From Megasphaera sp. NM10 (GTDB lineage: Bacteria > Bacillota > Negativicutes > Veillonellales > Megasphaeraceae), in assembly GCF_000417505.1 (NCBI RefSeq), contig NZ_APHY01000055.1, forward strand, positions 4 to 35,484: 35,481 nucleotides of DNA, given 5' to 3'. A model generated the notes under the pieces. It had not been told where the DNA came from. It was given only the letters and a program-made list of their open reading frames with translations, and made no database searches. This document shows positions 17,896 through 32,954 of this stretch, piece by piece; the first letter of the stretch is position 1; every line of letters starts with the position of its first letter. A program made the translations under genes and the position numbers.

Positions 17896-20589
17896 TTATT
17901 TCTTTTTCTTCCGGCTATACGGCGTCCCTTCTAAGGGCAATGTTGTCTGGAACTGGCCGTTCCATTTATAGTAGGCTCCGGCTACGGCAGGTGCCGTCGG
18001 GATGGAGGTGATTTCGCCGACGCCGATGGCTCCGTAGGCTACGTCGACGCCTTCTTTTTCGATGGGAATGGCTTCGACGTCAGGGGCTTTATCGGCCCGG
18101 AACAGGCCCAGGGTCCCGAATTTGGCCGTCGGTTTACAGTGGTCCAACGGATATTGTTCCGTCAGAGCATAACCGCAGCCCATGACGGTGCCGCCTTCGA
18201 TCTGGCCTTCCAGGCTCTTGCGGTTGACGACGCGGCCGACGTCGTGGGCGGCGACCATTTTGCGGATGGTACCGTCGTCATTGAGGATGCAGACGTGTGT
18301 GGCATAGCCGTAGGCGACGTGTGATACGGGATGAGGGACGTCAGCGCCCATCTTGTCGGTCTTGCCCAGGTATTCGCCGATGTATTCCCGACCGTTGAGG
18401 ACATCTAAGTCGCTACGGTTGAAGCGGACGGCGGCCGTAGCGGGCGATTCTTTTTCTACCGTTACGCCTTCCAGGTAGTTGCTGGCATGGCTCGTTTCTT
18501 CATAAGGCAGGCCCTTGGCGGCAAAGAGGTCGCGCCGCAGCTGGACGGCGGCTCGCCGGGCCGCTTCCCCGGTCAACGTCGTCTGCCGCGAACCCGACGT
18601 CGTACCGGCATCGGGTGAGGTCGCCGTATTGGGCATATGCCATTTGATATCTTCAATGGGAAGACCTGCAGCCTGGGATACCATCTGGACCAGGACCGTG
18701 CCGACGCCCTGGCCGATGCAGGATGCCGACGAGTAAATGTGTACCCTGTCGTCTTTGACGACCAGACGGCAGCGGCCATAGTCGGGCAGGCCGACGCCGA
18801 CGCCGGAATTCTTCAAGGCACAGGCAATGCCAACATAAGGCCCGCTGTGATAGTACGCCTCTTTGACGGCATCCAGCGTTTCGGCCAAGCCTGTCGACGG
18901 GTCGGCAATCTGGCCATTGGGCAGGATGTCACCGGGCCGGATGGCATTGCGATATCGGATTTCCCACGGGTCGATGCCGACCAGTTCAGCCAGTTTATTT
19001 AAGTTTAATTCCGTGGCAAAAATGGTCTGAGTGACGCCAAATCCGCGGAAGGCTCCGGCTGGTGGATTGTTAGTGTAAACGGCTGTCCCGTCGATGTCGA
19101 TGGTCTGGTAGTTATAAGGCCCTGCCGCATGGGTACAGGCGCGCTGGAGAACGGGTCCGCCCAGGGAGGCATAGGCCCCGTTGTCGGTGACGGCGACGAG
19201 CTTCATAGCCGTCAGTTTCCCAGTTTCATCGCAGGCCGTCGTCATGTCCATGCTGAACTGATGGCGCTTGGGATGGATGAGGATGCTTTCCTGGCGCGTC
19301 AACTTCACTTTACATATCCGTTTACATACATAGGCGACGAGGGCAGCCAAATGCTGGACCGTCACGTCTTCCCGGCCGCCGAAGCCGCCGCCGACGAAGC
19401 AGTTCTCGACGATGACTTTTTCTTCCGGCAGGCCCAGCATGAGTGCCGTTTCCCGGCGCGTATCATAAATGCCCTGGTCCGACGAATAAACGAAGACGCC
19501 GTCATCAAAGGGCATGGCGACGGCACATTCCGGTTCCAGGAAGGCGTGTTCCGTCCATGGCGTTTCAAAGTGGTGCGTCACCTTATACTTCGAGGCGGCA
19601 ATGACGGCATCAGCGTCGCCGCGGACCAGGTGTTCATGGGCCAGGACGTTCGTACCAGCCGACGGGTGTACCAGCGGCGCCCCTTCTTTCAGGGCGTCGG
19701 CTGCACAGGTCAGGGCCGGCAGTTCTTCATATTCGATATCGACGAGCTTCTTAGCCTGTTCCAGGATTTCCGGCGTTTCCGCAGCCACCAGGGCGATGGC
19801 GTCGCCCAGGAAGTGCGTCGTCGAGCCGACGGGGATGAGCGTATCCCAATCGGTCTTCAAATGGCCGACTTTGACGGACCCGGGGATATCGTCTGCCGTC
19901 AGGACGCAGACGACACCGGGCAGGGCCTTGGCCTTTTCCGCATGGATGGCCTTGACGACAGCCCGCGGATAAGCGCTGCGGATGGCACTGCCGTAACACA
20001 TGCCGGGCAGGTCGACGGCGTCCAAATCATCTGTATATCTGCCGACGCCCAGGACTTTGGCCTTGACGTTGACGCGCTGGCAGGGAGCGCCGACGCCGCG
20101 GTAGCCGCCGCGGACGGGAAGAGGCTGGTCCGTGCGCAGCAAATCTGCTGCCATAGCGATGGCGTCGATGATTTTCTTATAACCCGTACAACGGCAGATA
20201 TTATTGCGGATGGCCGCGGCGATTTCCAGCCGCGACGGCGCCGGGTTGGCGTCGATGAGGGCCTTGCCGCACATGACCATGCCGGGGATGCAGAAGCCGC
20301 ACTGGACGGCGCCGGCTTCGCCAAAGGCGTAGACGAAGACGTCTTTTTCCCGCTTGGACAGCCCTTCGACGGTCAACACGTGTTTACCAGCCATGCGGCT
20401 GACCTTTTGGACACATGTCTTGGTCGCCTTGCCGTCGATGACGACCGTACAGGTTCCGCAGGCCCCTTCACTGCAGCCATCCTTGACGGATTTCAGGCGC
20501 AGGTCATTGCGCAGGACGTCGATGAGCTTGCGTTCTCCATCGGCTTCTATTTCACGGCCGTTTACCCATAGTTTACATAATTCACTCAT
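17896..20589 (-). CDS. xdh: Selenium-dependent xanthine dehydrogenase (fused 2Fe-2S and molybdopterin domains)
   Basis: An 897-residue molybdenum hydroxylase. The N terminus is a plant-type [2Fe-2S] domain (C39, C44, C47 in GCSEGACGTC) joined to the helical second [2Fe-2S] domain (CGFC near 98, CRCTGY near 133). From about residue 160 the large molybdopterin domain follows, with FVGGGFGGRED, GAFRGFG, and the catalytic-glutamate loop GAIGVGEI near the C terminus. The fused architecture without a FAD domain, the neighbouring yqeB/yqeC genes, and the ssnA-ygfK context match the Se_dep_XDH family, which carries a labile selenium ligand on Mo. Expected chemistry is hydroxylation of xanthine/hypoxanthine-type purines, or the reverse reduction of urate. 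Selenium would come from SelD (outside the window). No separate FAD subunit is encoded nearby. It starts after AGGAAGGTGG. Confidence 0.9.
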   Translation of the reverse strand: MSELCKLWVNGREIEADGERKLIDVLRNDLRLKSVKDGCSEGACGTCTVVIDGKATKTCVQKVSRMAGKHVLTVEGLSKREKDVFVYAFGEAGAVQCGFCIPGMVMCGKALIDANPAPSRLEIAAAIRNNICRCTGYKKIIDAIAMAADLLRTDQPLPVRGGYRGVGAPCQRVNVKAKVLGVGRYTDDLDAVDLPGMCYGSAIRSAYPRAVVKAIHAEKAKALPGVVCVLTADDIPGSVKVGHLKTDWDTLIPVGSTTHFLGDAIALVAAETPEILEQAKKLVDIEYEELPALTCAADALKEGAPLVHPSAGTNVLAHEHLVRGDADAVIAASKYKVTHHFETPWTEHAFLEPECAVAMPFDDGVFVYSSDQGIYDTRRETALMLGLPEEKVIVENCFVGGGFGGREDVTVQHLAALVAYVCKRICKVKLTRQESILIHPKRHQFSMDMTTACDETGKLTAMKLVAVTDNGAYASLGGPVLQRACTHAAGPYNYQTIDIDGTAVYTNNPPAGAFRGFGVTQTIFATELNLNKLAELVGIDPWEIRYRNAIRPGDILPNGQIADPSTGLAETLDAVKEAYYHSGPYVGIACALKNSGVGVGLPDYGRCRLVVKDDRVHIYSSASCIGQGVGTVLVQMVSQAAGLPIEDIKWHMPNTATSPDAGTTSGSRQTTLTGEAARRAAVQLRRDLFAAKGLPYEETSHASNYLEGVTVEKESPATAAVRFNRSDLDVLNGREYIGEYLGKTDKMGADVPHPVSHVAYGYATHVCILNDDGTIRKMVAAHDVGRVVNRKSLEGQIEGGTVMGCGYALTEQYPLDHCKPTAKFGTLGLFRADKAPDVEAIPIEKEGVDVAYGAIGVGEITSIPTAPAVAGAYYKWNGQFQTTLPLEGTPYSRKKKK

Positions 20590-20613: not shown

Positions 20614-21993
20614 TTATCTTTTATCGCGGAATCGATACAACAAGGTTCCATAGCCGCGTTTTCCACAGAATTGATTGTCTTTGGCGATGATTTCGCCGCG
20701 GAGCATGGTCAGGCGGATCGTCGCCTGGACCGTCATGCCTTCATAGGGCGAATAGCCGCAGGTCGTGTGCAGGTTCTCCCTGGCAAAGGTCCGCGTCCCT
20801 TTCGGATCGATGAGGACGATGTCGGCATCGCTGCCGGGCAGCAGCGTCCCTTTGCGCGGATAGAGGCCAAAGATTTTGGCCACATTGGCACTGGTCACCT
20901 GGACGAAGCGCTCCAGGGTCAGCCGGCCTTTCAGGACGCCTTCACTGAACAGCAGGGGCATCCGTTCTTCGACGCCGGATACGCCGCCGGGACAGTTCCG
21001 GAAATCGCTGACATTCTCCTGTTTTTCAGCTATCGTAAAGGGGCAGTGGTCCGTCGCTACGGTCTGGATCGTCCCGTCGGCCAGGGCCTGCCACAGGGCC
21101 TGGTTGTCTTCGGCTTTCCGCAGCGGCGGCGCCAGCATGTATTTAATGCCTTCCATAGGGCCGCCGTGACGGAATTTCTCTTCTGTCAGCAATAAGTATT
21201 GCGGACACGTTTCACTGTAAATATGACGCTGGCCTTGGCGCCGGGCCAGGCGCAGCTGGTCCAGGCTCTCATGGGCCGACGTGTGGACGATATAGACCGG
21301 CGCATCGCCACAAGCCCGGGCTGCCGCCAGGACACGGCTCACGGCTGCGGCTTCGGCCACGTTGGGCCGCGTCTTCGCCTGGCCGATGGGCTGCAGGTCC
21401 TGCGGTCCCAGGGCATCCCGCAGGGCGTTGGTAATGCCGTCGCTTTCGGCATGGACCGTGAGCAGGCCGCCATGCTTCTTGATGACCGGCAGGAGCTGCA
21501 TCAGTTTCTTCTCGCCGACGGGATAGCCATACGTCGTATAGGCTTTGAAACTGGGAAAACCTTCGTCGATGAGCTGGCCCAATTCCTGCAGGACCTGGTC
21601 GTCGACATGCTGGATGACGCCATGGAAGCTGTAGTCGACCGGGCAGGGCACGGCCAGTTTCCGGTACCGTTCAAAGGGATAGCGCAGGGAACAGCCGGCC
21701 GGGCCAAAGGCCATATGATCCAGGATGGTCGTCGTGCCGCCGCAGGCCGCTGCCACGCCACCGCTGTAAAAGTCATCGCACGCGCGGTACTGCGGCGACT
21801 GCTGCAGGTCCATATGGGTGTGGGCATCGATGCCGCCAGGGCAGACATAGAGGCCGTCGGCGTCGATGACCTGTTCATGACCGCTGTGCACAGCCTGTCC
21901 CAAGGCCTGGATTTTTCCCTCACGGACGGTAACGTCGGCCCGGAAATGTTCCCCTTCCAGGCAGACCGTCCCGTTTTTGATGACGTAATCCAT
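20614..21993 (-). CDS. hyuA: Dihydropyrimidinase-family hydantoinase (HyuA/YgeZ-like)
   Basis: A 459-residue metal-dependent cyclic amidohydrolase. All binuclear-site ligands are visible: H58 and H60 in GIDAHTHMD, the lysine to be carboxylated K150 in PSFKAYTTYG, H181 in TVHAES, H237 in YIVHTSA, and D315 in VATDHCPF. The family opens hydantoins, dihydropyrimidines or related rings; in this cluster it probably opens a purine breakdown intermediate. It is preceded by ygfK with a 17-base gap holding GAAAGGGAAA, and followed by xdh after 24 bases, so it lies in the middle of the ssnA-ygfK-hyuA-xdh operon. Confidence 0.88.
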   Translation of the reverse strand: MDYVIKNGTVCLEGEHFRADVTVREGKIQALGQAVHSGHEQVIDADGLYVCPGGIDAHTHMDLQQSPQYRACDDFYSGGVAAACGGTTTILDHMAFGPAGCSLRYPFERYRKLAVPCPVDYSFHGVIQHVDDQVLQELGQLIDEGFPSFKAYTTYGYPVGEKKLMQLLPVIKKHGGLLTVHAESDGITNALRDALGPQDLQPIGQAKTRPNVAEAAAVSRVLAAARACGDAPVYIVHTSAHESLDQLRLARRQGQRHIYSETCPQYLLLTEEKFRHGGPMEGIKYMLAPPLRKAEDNQALWQALADGTIQTVATDHCPFTIAEKQENVSDFRNCPGGVSGVEERMPLLFSEGVLKGRLTLERFVQVTSANVAKIFGLYPRKGTLLPGSDADIVLIDPKGTRTFARENLHTTCGYSPYEGMTVQATIRLTMLRGEIIAKDNQFCGKRGYGTLLYRFRDKR

Positions 21994-22010: not shown

Positions 22011-24521
22011 CTATTCAATCAGCAGGTAATCGTAATCGCGGCAGACCGTTTCCATGAAGGTCCGCAGGTCTTCCGGGATTGCTTCATCAGCCGTCCCTAA
22101 AGTCGTCGTCCGGATTTCTCCATCCAGGCGGACTTTGCAGAAGCCGCTGGCCTTGTCGAGGACGGCAAAGCCCGAATTATCGCTGTGGTCTAAATCGTCT
22201 TCATTAGCGAAGAGTGTAAACTTATCTACATACGGCGCACCGCCCCAGGGACAGAAGGTCCGGCAGTTGCCACATTCGTTACACATGTAGTCAATATGCA
22301 GAATCTGAGCCTGCATATGGCCCGGTACCTGGATGGCTGTATTGGCCCGATTGGGGCAGACTTCCGTACAGACTTCGCAGACGCTGTCACAATGGAGGCA
22401 GCGGCCGTCACAGCCTGTTTCCGGTGCCGTCTCCAGAATACCCCGCTTCGAGTAAACGTCGTTTACATCAGCTGGAATCAGGGTATCGACACTGGCCATC
22501 TGGCCTAAAATGCCTTCCGCCGCCCGCTTGCCGTCGGCAATACATTCGACGACGGATGTCGTCTTGCCGTAATGGCCATCGCCGATGACGGTCAGGCCTT
22601 CGATGGCGCCGGCCAGGGTGTCACCGATTTTCCCTTTGACGCCGCAGGCCGCCAGGATGATGTCATAGCCCTGCAATTCGTCGAGCGAGGCGATGGCCCT
22701 GCCGACGACGAGATGGACACCCATCTTTTCGATGAGGGCTACATCCTTGTCGATGGCTTCTGGTGAAATCTGCCCTTTCTTTTCACACAAGAAGGTCCGC
22801 ACCAGGCCGCCAGGTTCGTCGTTCTTATCGAAGACGGTCACATCCAGGCCGCCGCGGGCCAGGAAATAAGCCGCCGACAGTCCGGCCGGACCGGCGCCGA
22901 TGACAGCCGCTTTTCTCCCATTGGACGGCGTGGCCTGCAAAGTCGTCATGACGCTGGCATAGCCTTTTTCAGCAGCTATCAGCTTATTGCGCCGGATTTC
23001 AACAGGGGCATCACAGAAATTGCGCGTACAGCTGTTCATACAGGTATGGTAGCAGACGGTCCCCGTCGTAAAGGGCAGGGGATTCTTTTCCAGAATAATC
23101 TGCAGGGCCTGGTCATATTTCCCGGCGGCGACGAGGTCCATATAGGCCGGGATATCCTGATGGATGGGGCAAGTCTGGCTGCACGGTGCCATGAAGCAGT
23201 CCATCAAGGGCAGTGCCTGGTCGTTCTTGCGCTGCTGGGCCTTCGGGTCCAGACGGGCATAGTGGGCATCATCTTGAGCCTTAGCCAGCAAGTCATCCAG
23301 GGCCTTGACGTTTACACGAGTAAACGCCTGTCCACGCTGACCTTCAAAACACTGTGCCAGCTGGGCAAAGCGTTCATAGCCACCGGGCTTGAGCAGCGTC
23401 GTCGCCACCGTGACCGGCCAGATGCCGGCCCGGACGATATTCTTGATGTTGTGGGCATCGGCACCGCCGCTGTAAGAAATACGCAGGCTGCCGTCAAAGG
23501 CTTCACTCAGCTTCTTGGCCACATTCATGGACAGGAAAAAGAGGGGCTTGCCGGACATATACATTTCCGTCCCCGGCAATTCATGGCGCGTAATGTCGAC
23601 GGGGAAGGTATTGGTCAGTTTGACGCCGAACAACAGGCCTTCCTCTTTACCCGCTTCCTGCAGCCCCTTGAGCATGGGTACGGCATCACGGTACTGTAAA
23701 TCCGCCTTGAAATGGCTGTCATCGAAGACCATATGGCCATAGCCCAGGTCATCCATGCATTTCCGGACGAAGTCATAGCCCAGTAAGGTCGGGTTGCATT
23801 TGACGAAGGTATTGAGGTGTTTTTCTTTCAGTAAATAGCGGGCAATCCGTTCGATTTCATCGGGCGGACAGCCGTGCATGGTCGAGACCGTGACAGAGTT
23901 GCAGATTTCTGCCGGAATGGCTTCGACGTCTTCCCGACGGAGTTTCTGGAACCGGTCCAGATGGGCCAGGAGCCAGGCTTTGCACTCGGCAAAGATAGCC
24001 GTATGGGATGCGTCTTTCAGATTTTCGATGAACGAATCGATTTTTGCCGTCTGTATCCCTGCCAGGTCGTAGCCGACGGACATGTTGAACTGCATCCCGT
24101 CCGGACTTCCTAAGCCGTATTCGACGGCCATGACGTGGACCAGGAACCAGGCCTTGACGTATTCTTCCAGGGCCTTGGGGACGGTCAGTTCCGTCGACCA
24201 TTCGACATTGTAACATTCATCGTCGGCCTTGATGCAGGGTTTGGGAACGGGCAGGTCTTCGCCGTCGATTTTCTGGACCGTCTTCAGTTCAAAGAAGCGC
24301 GCTCCCGCCGCATAGCCGGCAGCGATATTCTGGGCCAGCTGGGTATGGGGACCGGCAGCCGGGCCAAAGGGCATTTCCAGCGGTCTGTCAAAGATAGTAT
24401 ATGTCCGATTCGGGTCGGCCTGTAGGCGATGGTGGACGCCAAAGATCGTCCCTGACGGCGCTTCGGTCAGGACCCAGTTCATCAATTTTCCAAAGGGAAT
24501 GGATGTCATGCGATCACTCAT
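22011..24521 (-). CDS. ygfK: YgfK-family putative selenate reductase / purine-catabolism oxidoreductase, shortened
   Basis: An 836-residue iron-sulfur flavoprotein matching YgfK. The first 430 residues form a dihydroorotate-dehydrogenase-like barrel region (GPAAGPHTQLAQNI, ELKTVQKIDGEDLP, STMHGCPPDEIERI, SYSGGADAHNIK). A glutamate-synthase-like cysteine domain follows near 435-500 (CSQTCPIHQDIPAY). An FAD-binding motif VIGAGPAGLSAAYFLARGG lies at about 538 and its second half, VIGDGHYGK, at about 641. C-terminal ferredoxin cysteines lie near 699-760. E. coli YgfK has about 1030 residues; here the roughly 190-residue insert carrying the NAD(P)-binding Rossmann fold is absent without a frameshift. 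It probably passes electrons between Fe-S/flavin centres, perhaps with Xdh. The ATG at 24521 has AAGGAGG; the ATG at 24548 would overlap ssnA. Confidence 0.88.
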   Translation of the reverse strand: MSDRMTSIPFGKLMNWVLTEAPSGTIFGVHHRLQADPNRTYTIFDRPLEMPFGPAAGPHTQLAQNIAAGYAAGARFFELKTVQKIDGEDLPVPKPCIKADDECYNVEWSTELTVPKALEEYVKAWFLVHVMAVEYGLGSPDGMQFNMSVGYDLAGIQTAKIDSFIENLKDASHTAIFAECKAWLLAHLDRFQKLRREDVEAIPAEICNSVTVSTMHGCPPDEIERIARYLLKEKHLNTFVKCNPTLLGYDFVRKCMDDLGYGHMVFDDSHFKADLQYRDAVPMLKGLQEAGKEEGLLFGVKLTNTFPVDITRHELPGTEMYMSGKPLFFLSMNVAKKLSEAFDGSLRISYSGGADAHNIKNIVRAGIWPVTVATTLLKPGGYERFAQLAQCFEGQRGQAFTRVNVKALDDLLAKAQDDAHYARLDPKAQQRKNDQALPLMDCFMAPCSQTCPIHQDIPAYMDLVAAGKYDQALQIILEKNPLPFTTGTVCYHTCMNSCTRNFCDAPVEIRRNKLIAAEKGYASVMTTLQATPSNGRKAAVIGAGPAGLSAAYFLARGGLDVTVFDKNDEPGGLVRTFLCEKKGQISPEAIDKDVALIEKMGVHLVVGRAIASLDELQGYDIILAACGVKGKIGDTLAGAIEGLTVIGDGHYGKTTSVVECIADGKRAAEGILGQMASVDTLIPADVNDVYSKRGILETAPETGCDGRCLHCDSVCEVCTEVCPNRANTAIQVPGHMQAQILHIDYMCNECGNCRTFCPWGGAPYVDKFTLFANEDDLDHSDNSGFAVLDKASGFCKVRLDGEIRTTTLGTADEAIPEDLRTFMETVCRDYDYLLIE

Positions 24522-24534
24522 GATAGATTCCTCC

Positions 24535-25872
24535 TTATAAGTATCCATTAATGCGTCCGGCCAGGGTCGCTGCGCCTTCGCGGATTTTAGCCATCAGGGC
24601 TTCTTCATCGACACCGGTGAGCTGGCGGTTTTCCATGAGGACTTTGCCATTGGCAATAGTCGTGACGACATCGTGGCCGCTCATGCCGAATAAGATGTGA
24701 CTGTTGATGTTTTCTTCATTCATCGGCGTCGGAGCAATGTAATCCATGACGATGACGTCGGCTGCAGCCCCTTCTGCCAGTACGCCTAAGGGCTTCTTGA
24801 AATAGCGGTTGGCCATGGCTGCGTTGTTATAGAACAGCATCTGCGGTACTTCAGCCCAGGCGGCTGTAGCGTCGCAGAGATGGTGTTTGTGCAGGATATT
24901 GGCGACTTTATAGGACTCAATCATATCGTGCGTATAGCCATCGGTCCCCAAGCCGGTCAGGATACCGCGGTGGACCATGTCCATCGTCGGCGGGCAGCCA
25001 CAGGCATTGCCCATGTTCGATTCCGGATTGTGGACGACCATGGTATTTGTCGCCTTGATGAGGTCCATTTCGTGGGGATTGACGTGGATGCAGTGGCCGA
25101 GCAGGGTCTTGGGCCCTAAGATATTCCAGTCATAAAGGCGGTCGATAATGCGTTTACCGTGTTTCTTCAGACAATCCTGCAAGTCTTCGATGCCTTCGGC
25201 GACGTGGATGTGGTAACCCACGCCGTCCGGTTTATGTTCGGCTGCCAGGGCCATCGTTTTGTCGCTGATGGTAAATTGGGCATGCATGCCCATCATGCCG
25301 GCAATCATGTCCGTCGTGTCGGCCTGAGCGTGGCGGATCCAGGCTTCATTTTCCAGGACTGCCTGGCAAGCTTTATCCTGACCGTCGCGGTCGGAGACTT
25401 CGTAGCACAGACACGAGCGGACGCCCAGTTCCTGCGCTGCCTGGCCGATGGCAAAGAGGCTGTCCTTGATTTCACCAAAACTGGCGTGATGGTCGAAGAC
25501 TGTCGTCACGCCGTTCTTGATACATTCGACATACGTTTCCATGGCGCTCAAATAAGTCAGGTCGTTGGTCAAGTGACGGTCGATGTTCCACCACAGGCCG
25601 TCGAGGATGTCCAGGAAGCCCTTGGGCGCATAGCCGTCGATATTCATACCCCTGGCCATGGCGCTGTAAATATGCTCGTGAACGTTGATGAAAGCCGGCA
25701 TGATGACACCGCCTTTGGCATCGATAAAAGCGGCGTCTGGATAGGCTCGGCGGATTTCTGCCGTCTGGCCGACGCGGCAGATTGTCGTGCCGTCTATGGC
25801 TACGGCGCCATCAGGGAAATATTGATTCTTCGCGTCGCGGGTAACGACGTGACCGTTTCCGACGATTAACAT
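24535..25872 (-). CDS. ssnA: SsnA, putative aminohydrolase of the purine cluster
   Basis: A 445-residue member of the amidohydrolase superfamily, subgroup of guanine deaminase/chlorohydrolase-type deaminases. It shows INVHEHIYSAMARG (metal-binding histidines), YHIHVAEG, LLGHCIHVNPHE and TGLGTDGYTHDM (the metal-binding Asp). SsnA is conserved in the selenium-dependent purine gene set and likely deaminates a purine or purine-derived intermediate; its exact substrate is unproven. It is the first gene of the leftward operon. The start has a perfect AGGAGG seven bases upstream, and a TTGACA promoter lies at 25964-25992. Confidence 0.88.
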   Translation of the reverse strand: MLIVGNGHVVTRDAKNQYFPDGAVAIDGTTICRVGQTAEIRRAYPDAAFIDAKGGVIMPAFINVHEHIYSAMARGMNIDGYAPKGFLDILDGLWWNIDRHLTNDLTYLSAMETYVECIKNGVTTVFDHHASFGEIKDSLFAIGQAAQELGVRSCLCYEVSDRDGQDKACQAVLENEAWIRHAQADTTDMIAGMMGMHAQFTISDKTMALAAEHKPDGVGYHIHVAEGIEDLQDCLKKHGKRIIDRLYDWNILGPKTLLGHCIHVNPHEMDLIKATNTMVVHNPESNMGNACGCPPTMDMVHRGILTGLGTDGYTHDMIESYKVANILHKHHLCDATAAWAEVPQMLFYNNAAMANRYFKKPLGVLAEGAAADVIVMDYIAPTPMNEENINSHILFGMSGHDVVTTIANGKVLMENRQLTGVDEEALMAKIREGAATLAGRINGYL

Positions 25873-25963
25873 AAGTATACCTCCTCTATGCTATACAAAT
25901 CATAAATCATAAGATTTCTTGCAGTTAATGCATGTTATTTGTGTCATTCTCGTATCTATCTTA

Positions 25964-25992
25964 ATAGTAACCCGTTCCGCCTTACCTGTCAA
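25964..25992 (-). promoter_or_regulatory. Promoter of the ssnA-ygfK-hyuA-xdh operon
   Basis: On the minus strand there is a consensus TTGACA at 25992-25987, a 17-base spacer, and TACTAT at 25969-25964. The poor -10 paired with a palindrome just upstream (26005-26019) suggests activation. Confidence 0.65.
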
Positions 25993-26004
25993 TTTTTTTT
26001 TAGT

Positions 26005-26019
26005 CTAAAAATTTTTTAT
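26005..26019. promoter_or_regulatory. 15-bp palindromic box 1 (ssnA side)
   Basis: CTAAAAA-T-TTTTTAT, one mismatch from the palindrome CTAAAAA-W-TTTTTAG. It lies 12 bases upstream of the ssnA -35, centred near -55 relative to the inferred start, a typical activator position. Confidence 0.5.
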
Positions 26020-26084
26020 TATCTTTTTGTTATAGCCTGTAATGGAAAGATGTTTTTTCGACATACCTTTTTTCACCAAGGGCG

Positions 26085-26112
26085 TTGATTTATCCCGAAA
26101 ATATGCTATAGT
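26085..26112 (+). promoter_or_regulatory. Promoter of the YheO/DauR-type regulator
   Basis: TTGATT at 26085-26090, a 16-base spacer, and TATAGT at 26107-26112 preceded by TG and one base (extended -10). The inferred start near 26119 abuts the palindromic box at 26121. Confidence 0.55.
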
Positions 26113-26120
26113 AACAGTAC

Positions 26121-26135
26121 CTAAAAAATTTTTAG
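26121..26135. promoter_or_regulatory. 15-bp palindromic box 2 (regulator start site)
   Basis: CTAAAAA-A-TTTTTAG is a perfect 7-1-7 palindrome directly downstream of the regulator's -10, covering about +2 to +16. A protein bound here would repress the regulator's own transcription. Confidence 0.55.
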
Positions 26136-26182
26136 CAGATAAGCTAATAATCTGTTTTTGATATGAGAAAGAGGTGCCCCTT

Positions 26183-26821
26183 ATGTTAGACGACGTCGTC
26201 CTCAACTTCTTGCGTCACTTAGCCAAAGGCCTGGCAGACCAATTCGGCCCGAACTGTGAAATCGTCATCCACGACTTGAGCGATAATTATAAGGAAAATT
26301 CCATCGTCGCCATCGAAAATGGCCACGTCACCAACCGCAAAGTAGGCGATGGCCCGTCTATGGCCGTCCTCGACGCCCTGCGCAGCGATCCCGACAAGCT
26401 CCAGGACCATACGAGTTACCTGACCAAGACCAAAGACGGCCGCATCCTCAAGTCGACGACCATTTACATCCGCAATGAACAGCAAAAAGTCATCGGCATC
26501 TTCTCCATCAACTATGACATTACCGAACTGATGATGGTCGAAAATGCCATCAAGCCGCTCATCTCGGTCACGTCCAAGGAAGATAAGGTCAGCCGCATCC
26601 CGCAGAATGTCACGGACCTCCTCAACGACCTCATCGACGAATCGACGCGTCAGGTCGGCAAACCCGTCCCCCTCATGACACGGGAAGACAAGATCAAAGC
26701 CATCAAATTCCTCAACGACCGCGGGGCCCTGCTGATCACCAAGGCCGGCGACAAAATCTCCAAACACTTCGGCATCTCCAAATATACCCTGTACAGCTAC
26801 ATCGACAGCGGAGAAGAGTGA
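26183..26821 (+). CDS. YheO/DauR-type PAS-HTH transcriptional regulator
   Basis: A 212-residue DNA-binding protein. Residues about 8-115 form a YheO-type PAS-like sensor domain (LADQFGPNCEIVIHDLSD, then a segment near 85-100 ending GIFSINYDIT). Residues about 155-210 form the C-terminal helix-turn-helix of the DauR family (KIKAIKFLNDRGALLITKAG, then HFGISKYTLYSYI). Family members such as DauR control amino-acid catabolic genes in response to a small ligand. It lies between the two purine-related operons and is divergent from ssnA, so it is the best candidate for their regulator; a purine-derived ligand or 2,3-diaminopropionate is a guess. I start at the ATG at 26183, seven bases after GAGGTG; the GTG at 26174 lies inside that ribosome binding site. 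Confidence 0.85.
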   Translation: MLDDVVLNFLRHLAKGLADQFGPNCEIVIHDLSDNYKENSIVAIENGHVTNRKVGDGPSMAVLDALRSDPDKLQDHTSYLTKTKDGRILKSTTIYIRNEQQKVIGIFSINYDITELMMVENAIKPLISVTSKEDKVSRIPQNVTDLLNDLIDESTRQVGKPVPLMTREDKIKAIKFLNDRGALLITKAGDKISKHFGISKYTLYSYIDSGEE

Positions 26822-26885
26822 GATTAAGGGGCTATCGCACGAAGGCTTCTATCATCATGCAAGATTCCTTTCTCTTTATCGTTTA

Positions 26886-26933
26886 TAGTACGGAGTTTGT
26901 AGTTTGTAGAAGCTGACTTTAAATTTAAAAGCC
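26886..26933 (+). repeat. Interspersed about 47-bp intergenic repeat, copy 2
   Basis: TAGTACGGAGTTTGTAGTTT followed by GTAGAAG, variable bases and TTAAATTTAAAAGCC. It matches the minus-strand copy at 17842-17888 with a few changes. Both copies lie next to terminators of the purine operons. Confidence 0.6.
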
Positions 26934-26968
26934 TTCACTAAAAACTACAAACTGCAAACTTAATACTC

Positions 26969-27006
26969 AAAAAAGGGCTTGTTGCACATGCGACAAGCCC
27001 TTTTTC
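26969..27006. terminator. Terminator after the regulator gene
   Basis: The stem GGGCTTGTTGCA / TGCGACAAGCCC (one G-T pair) is flanked by A-rich and T5 tails. It belongs to the same family as the stem at 15981-16015 and should stop transcription before the ygeX promoter. Confidence 0.8.
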
Positions 27007-27059
27007 TATGCCCAAATGTAACAGTTCTCTTTCTGTCATTGCAAAAAAAGTGTAGATAC

Positions 27060-27074
27060 CTAACAAATTTTTAG
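27060..27074. promoter_or_regulatory. 15-bp palindromic box 3 (ygeX side)
   Basis: CTAACAA-A-TTTTTAG, one mismatch from CTAAAAA-W-TTTTTAG. It lies 10 bases upstream of the ygeX -35, centred near -52. This is nearly the same position as box 1 relative to the ssnA promoter. Confidence 0.5.
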
Positions 27075-27084
27075 CTCTTTTCTA

Positions 27085-27112
27085 TTGCAAATCTGTAAGG
27101 TCATGTTATACT
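27085..27112 (+). promoter_or_regulatory. Promoter of the ygeX-ygeY-ygeW operon
   Basis: TTGCAA at 27085-27090, a 16-base spacer, and TATACT at 27107-27112 with an upstream TG extension. The leader to the ygeX ATG is about 60 bases long and ends with AGGAGG. Confidence 0.6.
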
Positions 27113-27179
27113 CTAGGTATACAAAAACTTTTAGATTTACTAAAATATTTTTTTCAGTTTATCTTTAGGAGGTACGGAT

Positions 27180-28388
27180 ATGAAGAAAGATATGAAATGG
27201 GCTATGAACCATCTGCCCAAATCAGATGATAAAAATTTGCCGATCATGTCCCTCAGCGAAGTCGCCAAGGCCCGGACATTCCACCAGAGTTTCCCGCAAT
27301 ACAGCGAAACGCCGCTGACCCGGCTCACGCAGATGGCCCGCTACCTGGGCGTCGGTTCGATTTTCGTCAAAGATGAATCGTACCGCTTCGGCCTCAATGC
27401 CTTCAAAGTCCTGGGCGGTTCCTATTCCATGGCCAAGTACATCGCCAAGGAAACGCACCGCGATGTATCGGACATGCCTTATGACGTCCTGACGTCAGAT
27501 GAGCTCCGCCAGGAATTCGGCCAGGCAACCTTCTTCACGGCAACCGACGGCAACCACGGCCGCGGCGTCGCCTGGGCCGCCCAGAAGCTGGGCCAGAAAG
27601 CCGTCGTCCACATGCCGAAAGGCACGACCCAGACGCGGCTGGAAAACATCAAGAAACTCGGCGCCGACGTCGACATCCTCGACCTCAATTACGACGATTG
27701 CGTCCGCCAGGCAGCCAAAGAAGCCGCCGCTACGCCGCACGGCGTCATGGTCCAGGACACGGCCTGGGACGGCTATGAAGAAATCCCGTCGTGGATCATG
27801 CAGGGCTACGGCACGATGGCCATGGAAGCTGGCGAACAGCTGAAGGCCCGGGGCATCGAACGGCCGACGCACATCTTCGTCCAGGCCGGTGTCGGGTCCC
27901 TGGCCGGTGCCGTCGTCGGTTACTTCGCCAACCTCTATAAAGACAATCCGCCGAAATTCATCGTCGTCGAAGCATCGGCCGCAGCCTGTCTGTATAAAGG
28001 TGCCGCAGCCGGTGACGGCAAGCCCCGCATGGTCGGCGGTGACCTGGATACCATCATGGCCGGCCTGGCCTGCGGCGAACCGAACACGATTTCCTGGGAC
28101 ATCCTCAAGAACCATGTGACGACCTTCATCGCAGCCGATGACCCCATCACGGTCCGCGGTATGCGTATGCTGGCAGCGCCCCTCAAAGGAGATGCGCCCA
28201 TCGTATCCGGTGAATCCGGTGCCGTCCCCTTCGGCACCCTGGCTACAATCATGTTATCCGATGAATGTAAGGACCTGCGCGCTGAACTCGGCCTCGACGA
28301 CCATTCACAGGTCCTGGTCTTCTCGACAGAAGGCGACACGGACCCGGAACGCTATAAGAATATCGTCTGGCGCGGTTTGAATAAGTAA
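27180..28388 (+). CDS. ygeX: Diaminopropionate ammonia-lyase YgeX
   Basis: A 402-residue fold-type II PLP enzyme that splits 2,3-diaminopropionate into pyruvate and two ammonia. The PLP lysine is K76 in FGLNAFKVLGG. The catalytic aspartates known from the E. coli enzyme correspond to D123 in FTATDGNHGRG and D193 in VQDTAWDGY. The glycine-rich phosphate loop is QAGVGSLAGAVVG. In this gene set the substrate is thought to arise late in anaerobic purine breakdown. It is the first gene of the rightward operon, with AGGAGG eight bases before the ATG. ygeY follows after about 30 bases. Confidence 0.93.
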   Translation: MKKDMKWAMNHLPKSDDKNLPIMSLSEVAKARTFHQSFPQYSETPLTRLTQMARYLGVGSIFVKDESYRFGLNAFKVLGGSYSMAKYIAKETHRDVSDMPYDVLTSDELRQEFGQATFFTATDGNHGRGVAWAAQKLGQKAVVHMPKGTTQTRLENIKKLGADVDILDLNYDDCVRQAAKEAAATPHGVMVQDTAWDGYEEIPSWIMQGYGTMAMEAGEQLKARGIERPTHIFVQAGVGSLAGAVVGYFANLYKDNPPKFIVVEASAAACLYKGAAAGDGKPRMVGGDLDTIMAGLACGEPNTISWDILKNHVTTFIAADDPITVRGMRMLAAPLKGDAPIVSGESGAVPFGTLATIMLSDECKDLRAELGLDDHSQVLVFSTEGDTDPERYKNIVWRGLNK

Positions 28389-28418
28389 AACATTATATAA
28401 GATATAGGAGTGATTTTC

Positions 28419-29738
28419 ATGACAGTACCGTACGAAAAAATCAAAGAAGCCGCCAAAGGCTATGAACAGGATATGACCCGTTTCCTGCAGGACATCGTTA
28501 AATTCCCCGGTGAAAGCTGCGGCGAAAAGGAACATATCGACCGCATTGCCGAAGAAATGCGCAAACTCGATTTCGATAAAGTGGAAATCGACCCCATGGG
28601 CAACGTCCTGGGCTACATGGGCACCGGCAAGACCCTCATCGGCTTCGACGCCCACATCGACACCGTCGGCATCGGCAACAAGGCCAACTGGGATTTCGAT
28701 CCCTACGAAGGCTTTGAATCGGAAACGGAAATCGGCGGCCGCGGCACGTCGGATCAGCTCGGCGGCATCGTTTCTGCCGTCTACGGCGCCCGCATCATGA
28801 AGGACCTGGGCCTCCTATCCGACAAGTACACCGTCCTGGTCACCGGTACGGTCCAGGAAGAAGACTGCGACGGCCTCTGCTGGCAGTACATCATCAACGA
28901 AGACAAGGTCCGTCCGGAATTCGTCGTCTCCACGGAACCGACAGACGGCGGCATCTACCGCGGCCAGCGCGGCCGCATGGAAATCCGCATCGACGTCCAG
29001 GGTGTATCCTGCCACGGCAGCGCACCCGAACGCGGTGATAACGCCATTTACAAGATGGCCGATATCCTCCAGGACGTGCGGGCCCTCAACGAAAATGACG
29101 CAGCCGACACGACGGAAATCAAAGGCCTGGTCAAGATGCTCGACAAGAAATACAATCCCGAATGGGAAGAAGCCAACTTTCTCGGCCGCGGTACAGTCAC
29201 GTGCTCCCAGATTTTCTATACCTCGCCGAGCCGCTGCGCCGTCGCCGATTCCTGTGCCGTCTCCCTGGACCGCCGCATGACGGCCGGCGAAACGTGGCAG
29301 AGCTGCCTCGATGAAATCCGGGCTCTGCCGAGCGTCCAGAAGTACGGCGACGATGTCAAAGTCAGCATGTATGAATACGCCCGCCCGAGCTACACCGGCC
29401 TGACCTATCCCATCGAATGTTACTTCCCGACATGGGTCATCCCGAAAGACCACAAAGTCACCAAAGCCCTGGAAGAAGCCTATACCTCCCTCTTCGGCGA
29501 CAGCCGCATCGGCACTGCCGAAGCGGAAGCCATGCGTAAAGCCCGCCCCCTGACGGATAAATGGACCTTCTCGACTAACGGCGTTTCCATCATGGGCCGC
29601 AACGGCATCCCCGTCATCGGCTTCGGCCCCGGCGCAGAAGCCCAGGCCCATGCACCGAACGAAAAGACATGGAAACAGGACCTCGTCACCTGTGCCGCCG
29701 TCTATGCCGCATTACCTTCTGTATACACCGATAAATGA
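28419..29738 (+). CDS. ygeY: YgeY, M20-family hydrolase linked to selenium metabolism
   Basis: A 439-residue zinc-dependent amidohydrolase of the M20/ArgE/DapE family. Metal and catalytic residues are visible: H79 and D81 in [10 protein letters not shown]112 in [10 protein letters not shown], the catalytic E147 with E148 in VQEEDCDG, a ligand in STEPTD, and a C-terminal histidine in EAQAHAPNE. YgeY proteins occur with ygeX and ygeW and probably hydrolyse an amide or carbamoyl intermediate of purine breakdown; the substrate is unproven. I use the ATG at 28419, nine bases after AGGAG. The upstream GTG at 28410 overlaps that site. Confidence 0.9.
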
Positions 29739-29772: not shown

Positions 29773-30965
29773 ATGAAAACCTTACAGGACTACATCGATA
29801 AATTAAATGCCCTCAATTTCAAAGACATGTATGAAAACGACTTTTTCCTCACCTGGGACAAGACCGATGACGAACTGGAAGCCATCTGGGTCCTAGCCGA
29901 CGCCCTCCGCTTCATGCGGGAACACAATATTTCCACAAAGATTTTTGAAAGCGGCTTAGGCATTTCCATCTTCCGCGATAATTCGACGCGGACCCGTTTT
30001 TCCTTCGCCTCGGCCTGCAATCTCTTAGGCCTGCAGGTCCAGGACCTGGACGAAAAGAAGAGCCAGATTGCCCACGGCGAAACGGTCCGGGAAACGGCCA
30101 ACATGATCTCCTTCATGGCCGACGTCATCGGCATCCGCGACGACATGTACATCGGCAAAGGTCATGCCTACCAGAAAGAAGTCGTCGATTCCGTCACGCA
30201 GGGCTATAAAGACGGCATCCTCGAACAGAAACCGACGCTGGTCAACCTCCAGTGCGACATCGACCATCCGACTCAGTGTATGGCCGACGCGGCCCACATC
30301 ATCCACGAAATGGGCGGCCTGGAAAACCTGAAGGGCAAAAAAATCGCCATGACCTGGGCTTACTCCCCGTCCTATGGCAAACCCCTCTCGGTCCCGCAGG
30401 CGTCATCGGCCTCATGACCCGTCTGGGCATGGACGTCGTCCTGGCTCATCCCGAAGGCTATGAAGTCATGCCGGACGTCGTCGACGTCGCCAAAAAGAAC
30501 GCCGAAAAATCGGGCGGCTCCTTCCGCATCACCCACGACATGGCCGACGCCTTCAAAGACGCCGACGTCGTCTATCCCAAGAGCTGGGCTCCCTTTGCAG
30601 CCATGGAAAAGCGGACTAACCTCTACGCCGCTGGCGACCAGGCCGGCATCGACGCCCTGGAACAGGAACTCTTAGCCCAGAACGCGCAGCATAAAGACTG
30701 GTGCTGTACAGAAGAATTGATGAAGACCACGAAAGACGGCAAAGCTATGTATCTCCACTGCCTGCCGGCCGACATCAACGGCGTCAGCTGTGAAGACGGC
30801 GAAGTCGAAGCCTCTGTCTTTGACCGCTATCGCGATTCCCTCTATAAAGAAGCCAGCTACAAACCCTATGTCATCGCCGCCATGATCATGCTGGCCAAAT
30901 GCCAGGATCCGGCTCAGACCCTGAAAGCCTTAGAAGAACGCGGCATTCTGCGCAAAATGAAATAA
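29773..30965 (+). pseudogene. ygeW: YgeW, knotted carbamoyltransferase-family protein, frameshifted
   Basis: A homologue of the aspartate/ornithine carbamoyltransferase family found in the purine gene set. The carbamoyl-phosphate loop DNSTRTRFSFAS (residues 69-80), HPTQCMADAAH and the C-terminal HCLPADINGVSCEDGEV are all present. After residues matching PSYGKPLSVPQ the frame runs into a stop at 30417. The conserved continuation (GVIGLMTRLGMDVVLAHPEGY to the end) is in the next frame. Adding one G at the GG of 30399-30400 restores an expected protein of about 397 residues. As both halves are perfectly conserved in type, I think this is a homopolymer miscall. The likely reaction is phosphorolysis of a carbamoyl compound to give carbamoyl phosphate for arcC. 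Confidence 0.87.
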
Positions 30966-31074: not shown

Positions 31075-32034
31075 ATGACCGAGAAAAAGAAACGTATCGT
31101 CATTGCCCTCGGCGGCAACGCCCTGGGAAATACACTGCACGAACAGATGCTGGCCGTCAAGACGACAGCCAAAGCCATCGTCGACCTCATCCAGGAAGGC
31201 TGTGAAGTCATCGTCGCCCACGGCAACGGCCCGCAGGTCGGCATGATCAACCACGCCATGGCCGCCCTGAGCCGGGAAGACCCGAACCAGCCCAACACGC
31301 CGCTGTCGGTCTGTGTCGCCATGAGCCAGGCTTACATCGGCTATGACCTGCAGAATGCCCTGCGCGAAGAAATGTACAACCGCGACATCTTCGACATCCC
31401 CGTCGCCACCATGGTCACTCAGGTCCGCGTCGACCCGGAAGACCCGGCATTCAAGAACCCGTCGAAGCCCATCGGCCATTTCATGACCAAGGAACAGGCG
31501 GAATACGCTGCCAAAGAATACGGCTACATCGTCAAGGAAGATGCCGGCCGGGGCTGGCGCCGCGTCGTCGCCTCGCCGCTACCCCAGGAAATCATTGAAA
31601 TCGGCGCCATCCAAACCCTCGTCGATTCCGGCCAGCTGGTCATCGCCTGCGGTGGCGGCGGCATCCCCGTCATGCGCCACGGCAACCACCTCAAAGGGGC
31701 CAGTGCCGTCATCGACAAGGATTTTGCCAGCGAACGCCTGGCCGAAGACCTCCACGCCGACTACCTCATCATCCTGACAGCCGTGGAAAAAGTCGCCATC
31801 CATTTTGGCCAGGCAGACGAACAGTGGCTGTCGGAAATGACGACCGACCAAGCCCGGCAATATATGGCTCAAAATGAATTCGCTCCCGGCTCGATGCTGC
31901 CCAAAGTCCAGGCTGCCGTCAAATTCGCCGAATCCCGTCCCGGCCGGACAGCCTTGATCACACTGCTCCAAAAAGCCAAAGAAGGCATCCTCGGAAAGAC
32001 GGGGACCCGCATTTACCGGGGCGCAAGGATCTGA
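31075..32034 (+). CDS. arcC: Carbamate kinase
   Basis: A 319-residue amino-acid-kinase-fold enzyme that uses carbamoyl phosphate and ADP to make ATP, CO2 and ammonia. It opens with IVIALGGNALG, then VIVAHGNGPQVG, EDAGRGWRRVVASP (a carbamate-kinase signature), CGGGGIPV and the nucleotide-site segment LTAVEKVAI. In this cluster it is the energy-yielding last step (the YqeA position in E. coli), acting on carbamoyl phosphate probably released by YgeW. The start follows AAAGGAG. Its 3' end overlaps the convergent LysR gene by 22 bases. Confidence 0.93.
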   Translation: MTEKKKRIVIALGGNALGNTLHEQMLAVKTTAKAIVDLIQEGCEVIVAHGNGPQVGMINHAMAALSREDPNQPNTPLSVCVAMSQAYIGYDLQNALREEMYNRDIFDIPVATMVTQVRVDPEDPAFKNPSKPIGHFMTKEQAEYAAKEYGYIVKEDAGRGWRRVVASPLPQEIIEIGAIQTLVDSGQLVIACGGGGIPVMRHGNHLKGASAVIDKDFASERLAEDLHADYLIILTAVEKVAIHFGQADEQWLSEMTTDQARQYMAQNEFAPGSMLPKVQAAVKFAESRPGRTALITLLQKAKEGILGKTGTRIYRGARI

Positions 32035-32894
32035 CTGATTCCCTGTTGCACGTAATGGATGAATTTCTTGACTGCCGGTGATGCCCCATCCCGGCTGGGA
32101 ATGGCAATGCCAATGGTAATCGTATGGGGCGGATCCATGGGAAGGATAGCCACGCGGCCCTGCCACTGTGCCGTCATGAGGCGATTGTTCATACTGACAC
32201 CCAGGCCGGCTTCGACCATGCGATAGGTCGTATAGTTATCGATGGCCGTATATCGCGTTTCATAAGAAATATGTTCTTCCTTAAGGATCCGGACGACATC
32301 CGTATCCTGCTGCGGCAGTGGTTCAATAAAAGATTCATGACACAACTGCTTCAACGGGTATACCTCGGCTCGTGCCAAGGGATGATTTTCCGGAAGCCAC
32401 ATGACCATTTCATCTTCACATAAGGGAATCCAGTCTCCGGAAAAAGGGCGCCACGTCGTGATACAACAATCGAAGCGCCCTTCTTCCAATCCATCGTACA
32501 TCACTTTATTGGCGCATTCCTCGATGTGGACGTGGACTGCCGGATAGGCCTGCTGGAAAGCCTGTATGATCTGCGGCAGCCAGTTGGCGGCTACACTGAA
32601 ATAAGAGCCAATGTAAATATCCCCGGCCGTCAATCCCCGGATCTGGGCACTGTACTGCAACAAAGCATCTTCATCACGGATGAGGCGGCGCAGATAAGGG
32701 AGCACTGCCTGCCCTTCACGGGTCAGATAAATGCCTTGTGCCGTCCGCCCCAGCAGGGGAAAGCCGATTTCTTTTTCCAGCGATGCAATGGACCGCATGA
32801 CGCCAGACGGGGTATATCCCAATCGTTCGGCAGCTGAAGAAAAACTGCCCGCCTGGATGACTTGCAGCAAGAGCCTGCATTTTTCCGTATTCAT
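32013..32894 (-). CDS. LysR-family transcriptional regulator
   Basis: A 293-residue LysR-type regulator. The N-terminal winged helix (residues about 5-62) includes VIQAGSFSSAAERLGYTPSG and SIASLEKEIGFPLLGR. The rest is the periplasmic-binding-protein-like effector domain starting near GLTAGDIYIGSYFS. It is divergent from the EamA transporter, whose expression it probably controls in the usual LysR manner. I start at the ATG at 32894, six bases after AGGTG, and not at the GTG at 32903. The ligand is unknown. Confidence 0.9.
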   Translation of the reverse strand: MNTEKCRLLLQVIQAGSFSSAAERLGYTPSGVMRSIASLEKEIGFPLLGRTAQGIYLTREGQAVLPYLRRLIRDEDALLQYSAQIRGLTAGDIYIGSYFSVAANWLPQIIQAFQQAYPAVHVHIEECANKVMYDGLEEGRFDCCITTWRPFSGDWIPLCEDEMVMWLPENHPLARAEVYPLKQLCHESFIEPLPQQDTDVVRILKEEHISYETRYTAIDNYTTYRMVEAGLGVSMNNRLMTAQWQGRVAILPMDPPHTITIGIAIPSRDGASPAVKKFIHYVQQGISQILAPR

Positions 32895-32954
32895 ATCTAT
32901 CACCTTTGCTTTTTTATCAAAACTATATATATTATTTTGCTATTCTCTCCATAC

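Follow-up and report, generated by a model that had tools for sequence, protein, structure and literature searches.

What controls the anaerobic breakdown of urate in gut bacteria is the question raised by a locus of Megasphaera sp. NM10 (contig NZ_APHY01000055.1), analysed here over a stretch of 35,481 nucleotides that is referred to as the window. Gut anaerobes degrade urate, and a recent description covers the enzymes of the reductive pathway (available text of PMC12507026). The cluster genes of the window correspond to these enzymes (same text) and form two operons, headed by ssnA on the minus strand and by ygeX on the plus strand, between which lies the gene of a YheO-type regulator (Table 1). 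This protein consists of a PAS_6 domain (Pfam PF08348, 137.8 bits against a cut-off of 27) and a C-terminal HTH_22 domain (PF13309, 70.2 bits against a cut-off of 29.6). The answer proposed here, with a probability of roughly 0.85, is that the 15-base-pair (bp) palindrome CTAAAAAWTTTTTAG is the operator of this PAS-HTH protein, which would act as the local regulator of anaerobic reductive purine/urate breakdown. The sequence comparisons described below lend good support to a purine regulon under the YheO-type protein.

The palindrome occurs three times with at most one mismatch in the 1.1-kb stretch that holds the ssnA, regulator and ygeX promoters (positions 25,964 to 27,112), once at each promoter (boxes 1, 2 and 3, respectively). 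Box 1 is separated by 12 bp from the -35 element of ssnA (TTGACA, 25992-25987 on the minus strand) and box 3 by 10 bp from that of ygeX (TTGCAA, 27085-27090). With transcription starts predicted seven bases past the -10 elements, the centres of these two boxes fall at -56 and -53, and that of box 2, the perfect copy, at about +8 of the regulator gene. A first-pass annotation had listed the same three boxes, with the same coordinates and mismatches, and the same two gaps, all of which are reproduced exactly; its centres of -55 and -52, and its placing of the perfect copy on the start of the regulator transcript, agree with the present values within a base or so. Three further sites had escaped it: two boxes in the ygeX leader (box 4 and the weak box 5) and a weak box past box 2.

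The layout ssnA-regulator-ygeX is common to seven Megasphaera species. In alignments of the seven, the counterparts of the boxes hold their position with 0-3 mismatches and much of the intervening DNA varies. The counterpart of box 1 is found in six species (1-3 mismatches; it is decayed in genome G001), that of box 2 in all seven (0-3 mismatches) and that of box 3 also in all seven (1-3 mismatches). The two leader boxes are new here and conserved as well, since CTAAAATATTTT within box 4 and TATACAAAAACTTTTAG within box 5 are unchanged in the seven species. The weak box past box 2 is retained in G000, G009, G010 and G006, and in G002 with one change. Taken together with a degenerate but conserved element ahead of box 3, the box sites plus the -35 and -10 elements make up most of the conserved blocks in the ygeX promoter of Megasphaera. 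At the level of the whole genus, the same eight of 15 genomes have both the regulator (E<=1e-40) and ssnA (E<=1e-100), and the other seven have neither. The eighth of these genomes, G004, carries a rearranged cluster in which about 3 kb separate the regulator from ygeX and about 11 kb separate it from ssnA; box 3 has a counterpart here too, the box CTAAAAAAAATTTAG lying 8 bp from the -35 element of ygeX, and CTAAATAAATGTTAG lies upstream of ssnA, 16 bp from its -35 element. The conservation of the 15-mer, or of a close variant, at the ssnA, ygeX and regulator promoters of related genomes had been set as a check beforehand, and it is borne out. In the same rearranged genome, another site, CTAAAAAATATTTTT (L153 15836-15850; score 15.2), is found upstream of a gene of the M20 peptidase family between ygeX and the regulator.

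Rarity of the 15-mer elsewhere was the other check set in advance, and the word proved to be rare. The genome of the window (2,614,341 bases) contains three sites at up to one mismatch, all of them in the 1.1-kb stretch, and eight further sites at two mismatches; a reversed control pattern gives one site at up to one mismatch and ten at up to two. None of 100 shuffles of the window preserving dinucleotides reaches three matches at up to two mismatches, a significance that is overstated because shuffling destroys A-tracts; the half-site order test given below and the placement in whole genomes are independent of shuffles. From the background of the genus outside the cluster (seven matches in about 33.6 Mb), the probability of at least three matches in the interval is about 2e-12, or 2e-9 if a tenfold rate is allowed for AT-rich DNA. 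Across the 15 genomes, 9 of 16 near matches and all three exact copies lie in these promoters, and it is their placement, not their number, that sets the matches of the genus apart. One-mismatch matches in G006 and G010 were rejected; they fall within the coding region of a gene of the phosphorylase superfamily, which we read as a purine nucleoside phosphorylase, and are explained by its protein sequence.

A wider regulon in the same genome did not emerge. None of the eight two-mismatch sites was recognised at a purine operon; one two-mismatch site (L005) is about 1.3 kb ahead of what reads as the start of a GMP synthase gene, with a GATase domain. No box comparable with boxes 1-3 was found at the PF00860 permease loci L176, L177, L178 and L180 (four loci scanned of five matches; L179 adjoins L177), where the best matrix scores were 10.6 and 12.0. 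At L177 and L179, a purine/uracil permease-family gene (G000:C72:19718-20850) seems to be split into two frames in this assembly.

The assignment of the boxes to the YheO-type protein had been an inference of the first-pass annotation, and it is now backed by three observations: a single purine-linked clade, co-occurrence with ssnA, and the presence of boxes at the promoter of the regulator gene itself in different families. In a tree of 75 YheO-type regulators, built by a quick method without bootstrap, one clade of 57 rows gathers the purine-linked proteins (Shimodaira-Hasegawa-like approximate likelihood-ratio test, 99). Linkage was defined by ssnA, ygeX, ygeY or hyd neighbours; 54 rows are linked, some of them solely by a hydantoinase-like neighbour with about 36-40% identity, and three nested rows are unlinked. 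The regulator of the window, with its upstream box, belongs to this clade. Outside it remain 18 rows, including E. coli YheO and a paralog from the same genome as the window. Among 380 genomes of the class, the regulator is present in 33, ssnA in 42 and both in 27 (overlap counted by hand), which gives a Fisher p of 5e-25 with kinship ignored. An AlphaFold2 model of the regulator (mean predicted local distance difference test score, 85) places the PAS strands first and then helices, the last of which (residues 200-209), SKYTLYSYI, is well kept in the purine clade. The protein has no sequence match among solved structures at E<=0.01, and a fold search with the model retrieved general PAS folds, mostly LOV domains, and also VqmA and EL222, which are PAS-HTH regulators, with no close relative. 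A covariation between the recognition helix and the box in f4, a family of the same order (SKFTLYND or SKFTLYSD with boxes holding C and G), is suggestive and was set aside, as it amounts to a single event and a C is found at that position in Megasphaera ygeX as well. In a neighbouring genus (L158, genome G015), a regulator 55% identical to that of the window is found with no ssnA at the cut-off and no box scoring at least 11.5 in 16 kb; it is possibly a relict or a re-used copy.

Outside Megasphaera, the exact word was searched in the genomes of 16 chosen loci out of 61 regulator loci, and it is found once each in five of them; the reversed word gives one copy in the 16. In two Scybalomonas genomes, a Eubacteriales bin and a Ruminococcus bin, the copy precedes the orthologous regulator. 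These four copies were visible before the search, which adds that those genomes hold no other copy. The fifth, from a member of the Synergistaceae (L122 1501-1515), is located 174 bp ahead of the GTG of a PF00860 (Xan_ur_permease) gene (146.8 bits) whose product would, from its family, carry purines; it is the sole exact copy of that genome and is not in its 12.6-kb regulator locus (L084). In no one of the 17 genomes searched does the exact word occur more than once. A looser palindrome, CTAAMWAWTWKTTAG, was written after the sites of family f4 had been seen, so that its contribution is uniqueness at the genome level. In eight of the 19 regulator-bearing f4 genomes it gives ten sites in seven genomes, all ten at 30-124 bp upstream of the regulator; the eighth f4 genome (G376) and two further genomes searched, G004 and G293, have none, and the reversed control gives two sites in the same genomes.

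A matrix trained on Megasphaera alone was applied to the regions upstream of 25 purine-linked regulators, hand-picked at one or a few per genus from the 40 such loci outside Megasphaera, and of 14 unlinked regulators, L065 and L103 being omitted. A significant box (shuffle p<0.05) is present in 17 of the 25 linked and in three of the 14 unlinked regions. When the half-site was written in each of 42 orders, CTAAAAA was the best on the 25 regions (mean 13.25; the next order, 11.02), and the outer C, in sites chosen blind to the ends, is enriched outside Megasphaera (10 of 28, p=0.0024). The highest scores among 82 control intergenic regions, a set that includes purine promoters and whose figures stand with those included, comprise those of ygeX promoters (L048, L074), an xdh/hyd intergenic region (L069) and L081, among others of the unrelated L096, L092 and L098. 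The L081 region (455-860, from a Ruminococcus bin), which precedes a guanine-deaminase-like gene (TIGR02967, 338.7 bits, below the cut-off of 375.4) and is bounded on its other side by a gene for a Bmp-like lipoprotein (slightly below the Pfam cut-off), has the box-like site CAAAAAATTTTTTTG at 641. Box-like sites also occur upstream of two unlinked regulators that are paired in the tree, at L094 839-853 (Planctomycetota) and L089 5954-5968 (Synergistaceae); the operator may be older than the purine clade.

The spacing of the boxes, which is new here as well, gives a further indication of how they might be used. Distances to the -35 element were taken from 129 of 180 promoter regions, kept after dereplication at 0.80 similarity and including unlinked regulators; divergent ssnA/regulator regions overlap in this set, so that some boxes are counted twice. 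A TTG-type promoter is found in 83 of the 129 regions, and these contain 57 boxes, of which 13 lie 7-10 bp and eight 27-30 bp upstream of the -35 (shuffle means, 0.025 and 0.075, respectively). Ten of those 13 come from species that did not serve to train the matrix and three from training species. Purine-linked loci contributed 63 regions (regulator or ygeX) with 45 box pairs spaced by no more than 60 bp; the spacing is exactly 20 bp in 14 of these pairs and 19-22 bp in 19 (0.27 in shuffles). As 20 bp is about two helical turns, neighbouring dimers would share one face of the helix.

In the model favoured here, a regulator dimer would bind each 15-bp palindrome, and dimers would stack on one helix face where boxes are 20 bp apart. 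From boxes at about -51 (and -71), the protein would most likely bring RNA polymerase to the two operons headed by ssnA and ygeX, probably when its PAS domain senses a purine or an intermediate of the pathway. A box at about -51, alone or with one at -71, ahead of a sigma-70-type promoter is consistent with an activator that contacts the polymerase, and a box at about +8 of the own gene fits autorepression, by which the regulator would most likely limit its own synthesis. The additional ygeX pair at about +8/+28 probably damps or times the promoter, perhaps together with the upstream sites. An activator that represses itself, as the first-pass annotation had proposed, is the likeliest model and is partly supported; the positions near -51 and -71 upstream of the -35 favour the activating part, and the two conserved boxes past the ygeX start are what the proposal did not foresee.

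These same boxes are at the centre of the alternative that survives best, in which the protein and its operators are as described and the protein is a repressor. Dimers on either side of the ygeX promoter would shut it, perhaps by a loop, until a purine releases them, and ssnA and the regulator gene would be repressed as well. Conserved elements indeed lie on both sides of the start at Megasphaera ygeX (about -72, degenerate, -52, +8 and +28), and the regulator promoter of G354, a member of f4, has sites at -72, -52, +10 and +30. Moreover, the YheO-like CfiR of Campylobacter jejuni is described as a repressor of its neighbour in the accessible part of PMC4519771. However, several distant promoters (ygeX of Blautia and of C. 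muellerianum, UW_DM and LachC49) have only the upstream sites at about -51/-71, which would be unusual for a repressor alone, and at the ssnA promoters of G000, G001, G009 and G011 no box scoring at least 9 is found past the start, that of G004 having one at about -7. Pure repression of the targets is considered rather unlikely.

Several observations weigh against the operator and activator model put forward here. The ygeX sites downstream of the start do not fit a pure activator, so that this target may be under repression or dual control, and the proposed binding, mode of control and ligand are all deduced from sequence. As many as 36 of the 57 boxes are scattered at other distances from the predicted -35. 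The genus total at up to one mismatch shows no excess over the reversed control (16 against 18 in the 15 genomes), and the regulator of G004 has no good box upstream (best score, 5.1). Outside the genus, eight of the 25 purine-linked regulators have no significant box, and four of 27 control regions matched in length and AT content reach a score of 16, as do four of the 25 test regions; three of these four controls adjoin purine genes. Finally, the outer G is not clearly enriched outside Megasphaera (7 of 28, p=0.085), and because of this, part of the signal in Clostridia may be AT-rich promoter DNA, which there could overlap with DNA resembling UP elements.

The consensus of UP elements is an A-tract/T-tract centred near -52, and their location is restricted to about -59 to -38. 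If the upstream boxes were such elements, or phased A-tracts, they would bind the alpha subunits of RNA polymerase or bend the DNA and would not be operators. Their core, AAAAAWTTTTT, resembles this consensus, the cluster of boxes 7-10 bp upstream of the -35 would be well placed, and the weak retention of the outer G outside Megasphaera agrees with it. Nevertheless, boxes also occur at about +8 and +27, which is out of the range of an element that acts only from upstream; the preferred half-site order includes the ends of the palindrome; and in some f4 palindromes the A/T tract is interrupted by C and G (CTAACAATTTGTTAG). UP elements would also be many, whereas none of the 17 genomes searched has more than one copy of the exact word. 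This alternative is quite improbable.

It is even harder to assign the boxes to another protein, an explanation that is judged highly improbable. Examples would be the LysR-type regulator, whose gene is found at the distal end of the ygeX operon, and a second PAS_6 protein encoded in this genome (G000:C1:49714-50052, locus L173). Both genes do exist, one of them within the window. No LysR match appears among those listed for 93 relative loci, a statement that holds for limited flanks, with overlapping weaker matches filtered and without a systematic search for other kinds of regulator. The second PAS_6 protein is 22% identical to the regulator, its gene lies about 276 bp downstream of a Ribonuc_L-PSP (RidA-family) gene, and no box within three mismatches is present in its 3.3-kb locus. 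That the boxes are chance palindromes of low-G+C intergenic DNA, to which the chance-level number of near matches in the genus would point, or leader RNA hairpins or a riboswitch, is hardly credible, since placement and conservation nearly refute the former, three copies in the interval having the probability given above, and for the latter boxes 1 and 3 precede the predicted starts and no riboswitch match is found at E<=1 in 24400-28500. The Rfam scan of that interval returned one snoRNA match, far below the gathering score, which was discarded as a structured RNA.

The remaining features of the locus are collected in Table 1. The hairpin between the regulator and ygeX resembles a terminator, and a simple terminator scan listed none there. 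The two frames of ygeW match the halves 2-207 and 205-388 of TIGR03316, each below the whole-protein cut-off, and the split is either a real frameshift or an assembly error.

Table 1. Boxes, predicted promoters and genes of the purine locus (positions in the window)
Feature	Coordinates	Strand	Sequence or remarks
Box 1, ssnA promoter	26005..26019	+	CTAAAAATTTTTTAT, 1 mismatch
Box 2, regulator promoter	26121..26135	+	CTAAAAAATTTTTAG, 0 mismatches
Weak box past box 2	26144..26158	+	CTAATAATCTGTTTT; score 9.4
Degenerate distal element	27041..27055	+	GCAAAAAAAGTGTAG; 19 bp ahead of box 3; conserved; box score -4.6
Box 3, ygeX promoter	27060..27074	+	CTAACAAATTTTTAG, 1 mismatch
Box 5 (weak), ygeX leader	27120..27134	+	TACAAAAACTTTTAG; matrix score 8.0; 20 bp ahead of box 4
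Box 4, ygeX leader	27140..27154	+	CTAAAATATTTTTTT; centre about +27; 80 bp past box 3
Predicted ssnA promoter	25964..25992	-	TTGACA-17-TACTAT; hexamer regions conserved
Predicted regulator promoter	26085..26112	+	TTGATT-16-TATAGT with TG; -10 region conserved
Predicted ygeX promoter	27085..27112	+	TTGCAA-16-TATACT with TG; conserved
Terminator-like hairpin between regulator and ygeX	26970..27005	+	inverted repeat, 17-nucleotide arms, 3' arm ends TTTTT
YheO-type regulator (PAS_6 + HTH_22)	26183..26821	+	212 amino acids; ATG 6 bases past GAGGTG
Molybdenum hydroxylase, xanthine dehydrogenase family (XdhD-like by context)	17896..20589	-	MoCoBD_1, MoCoBD_2, Fer2_2
Dihydropyrimidinase/hydantoinase (HyuA-like)	20614..21993	-	TIGR02033, 482 bits
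ygfK	22011..24548	-	TIGR03315, 1034 bits
ssnA	24535..25872	-	first gene of minus-strand operon; NCBIfam NF005540, 661 bits
ygeX, diaminopropionate ammonia-lyase	27180..28388	+	first gene of plus-strand operon; TIGR03528, 614 bits
ygeY	28410..29738	+	TIGR03526, 671 bits
ygeW, carbamoyltransferase	29773..30965	+	two overlapping frames in this assembly, 29773-30417 and 30252-30965
arcC, carbamate kinase	31075..32034	+	TIGR00746, 375 bits
LysR-type regulator	32013..32903		convergent with arcC, far end of ygeX operon

A broader reading, on which the evidence is evenly balanced, is that this YheO subfamily may be a lineage-spanning master regulator of reductive urate/purine breakdown in Bacillota and Synergistota. 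In that case, CTAAAAAWTTTTTAG would be placed every 20 bp at a fixed promoter phase (-71 and -51, and in some Negativicutes about +8 and +28), the protein would activate or repress according to position, and in some lineages the regulon would reach purine permeases and guanine deaminase. With an operator recognisable from sequence, one could predict which bacteria switch on urate breakdown, and together with what else, and search for the inducing purine. This would also be a first operator, with a probable class of ligand, for this PAS family, and it makes the control of uric-acid breakdown in bacteria accessible to experiment.

With respect to known systems, the regulator of the window has the same two domains, PAS_6 and HTH_22, over the Pfam cut-offs, as the YheO family that includes E. 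coli YheO and CfiR. Over the matched part its identity to E. coli YheO is about 30%, and the two belong to separate clades. The first-pass annotation had called it DauR-type, after the Pseudomonas aeruginosa member of the YheO/PAS_6-HTH_22 regulators, a label that holds for the domain family and not beyond it. DauR, the D-arginine utilisation repressor, is linked to dauB/dauA and controlled by arginine, whereas the neighbours found here are purine genes, no search having been aimed at dau genes. In E. coli, YgeV is a sigma-54 activator. The uricolytic cluster of that species (ygeW, ygeX, ygeY, ssnA, ygfK and xdhD) encodes the same enzymes of the reductive urate pathway as the window, and a Crp-binding site is reported between ygeV and ygeW, in a main text where, as available, the word 'regulator' occurs 0 times (PMC12507026). 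In Clostridium difficile, DioR/SigL (sigma-54) is predicted to control the purine utilisation genes yqeB and pbuX (accessible text of PMC11448449); DioR is an enhancer-binding protein acting at a sigma-54 promoter, in contrast to the PAS-HTH protein and sigma-70-type promoters considered here. A literature search, with thin coverage of subscription papers and preprints, found no operator sequence for the YheO/PAS_6-HTH_22 family, and in the texts covered, including the available portions of PMC11448449, PMC3519856 and PMC10717218, no YheO-type control of Bacillota urate clusters, which is not proof of its absence from print. What is new is the regulon with its operator; the regulator family itself was already known, and in 2015 it was said of the PAS family of CfiR that 'very little is known' (PMC4519771, in the part available). 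According to the same part of that paper, CfiR also acts on its neighbour gene, in the way proposed for local control by the regulator of the window. CfiR, next to CfiP in Campylobacter, and the paralog in the genome studied here both adjoin L-PSP/RidA-family genes, whereas the regulator of the window departs from this RidA-linked YheO/CfiR arrangement and sits between ssnA and ygeX.

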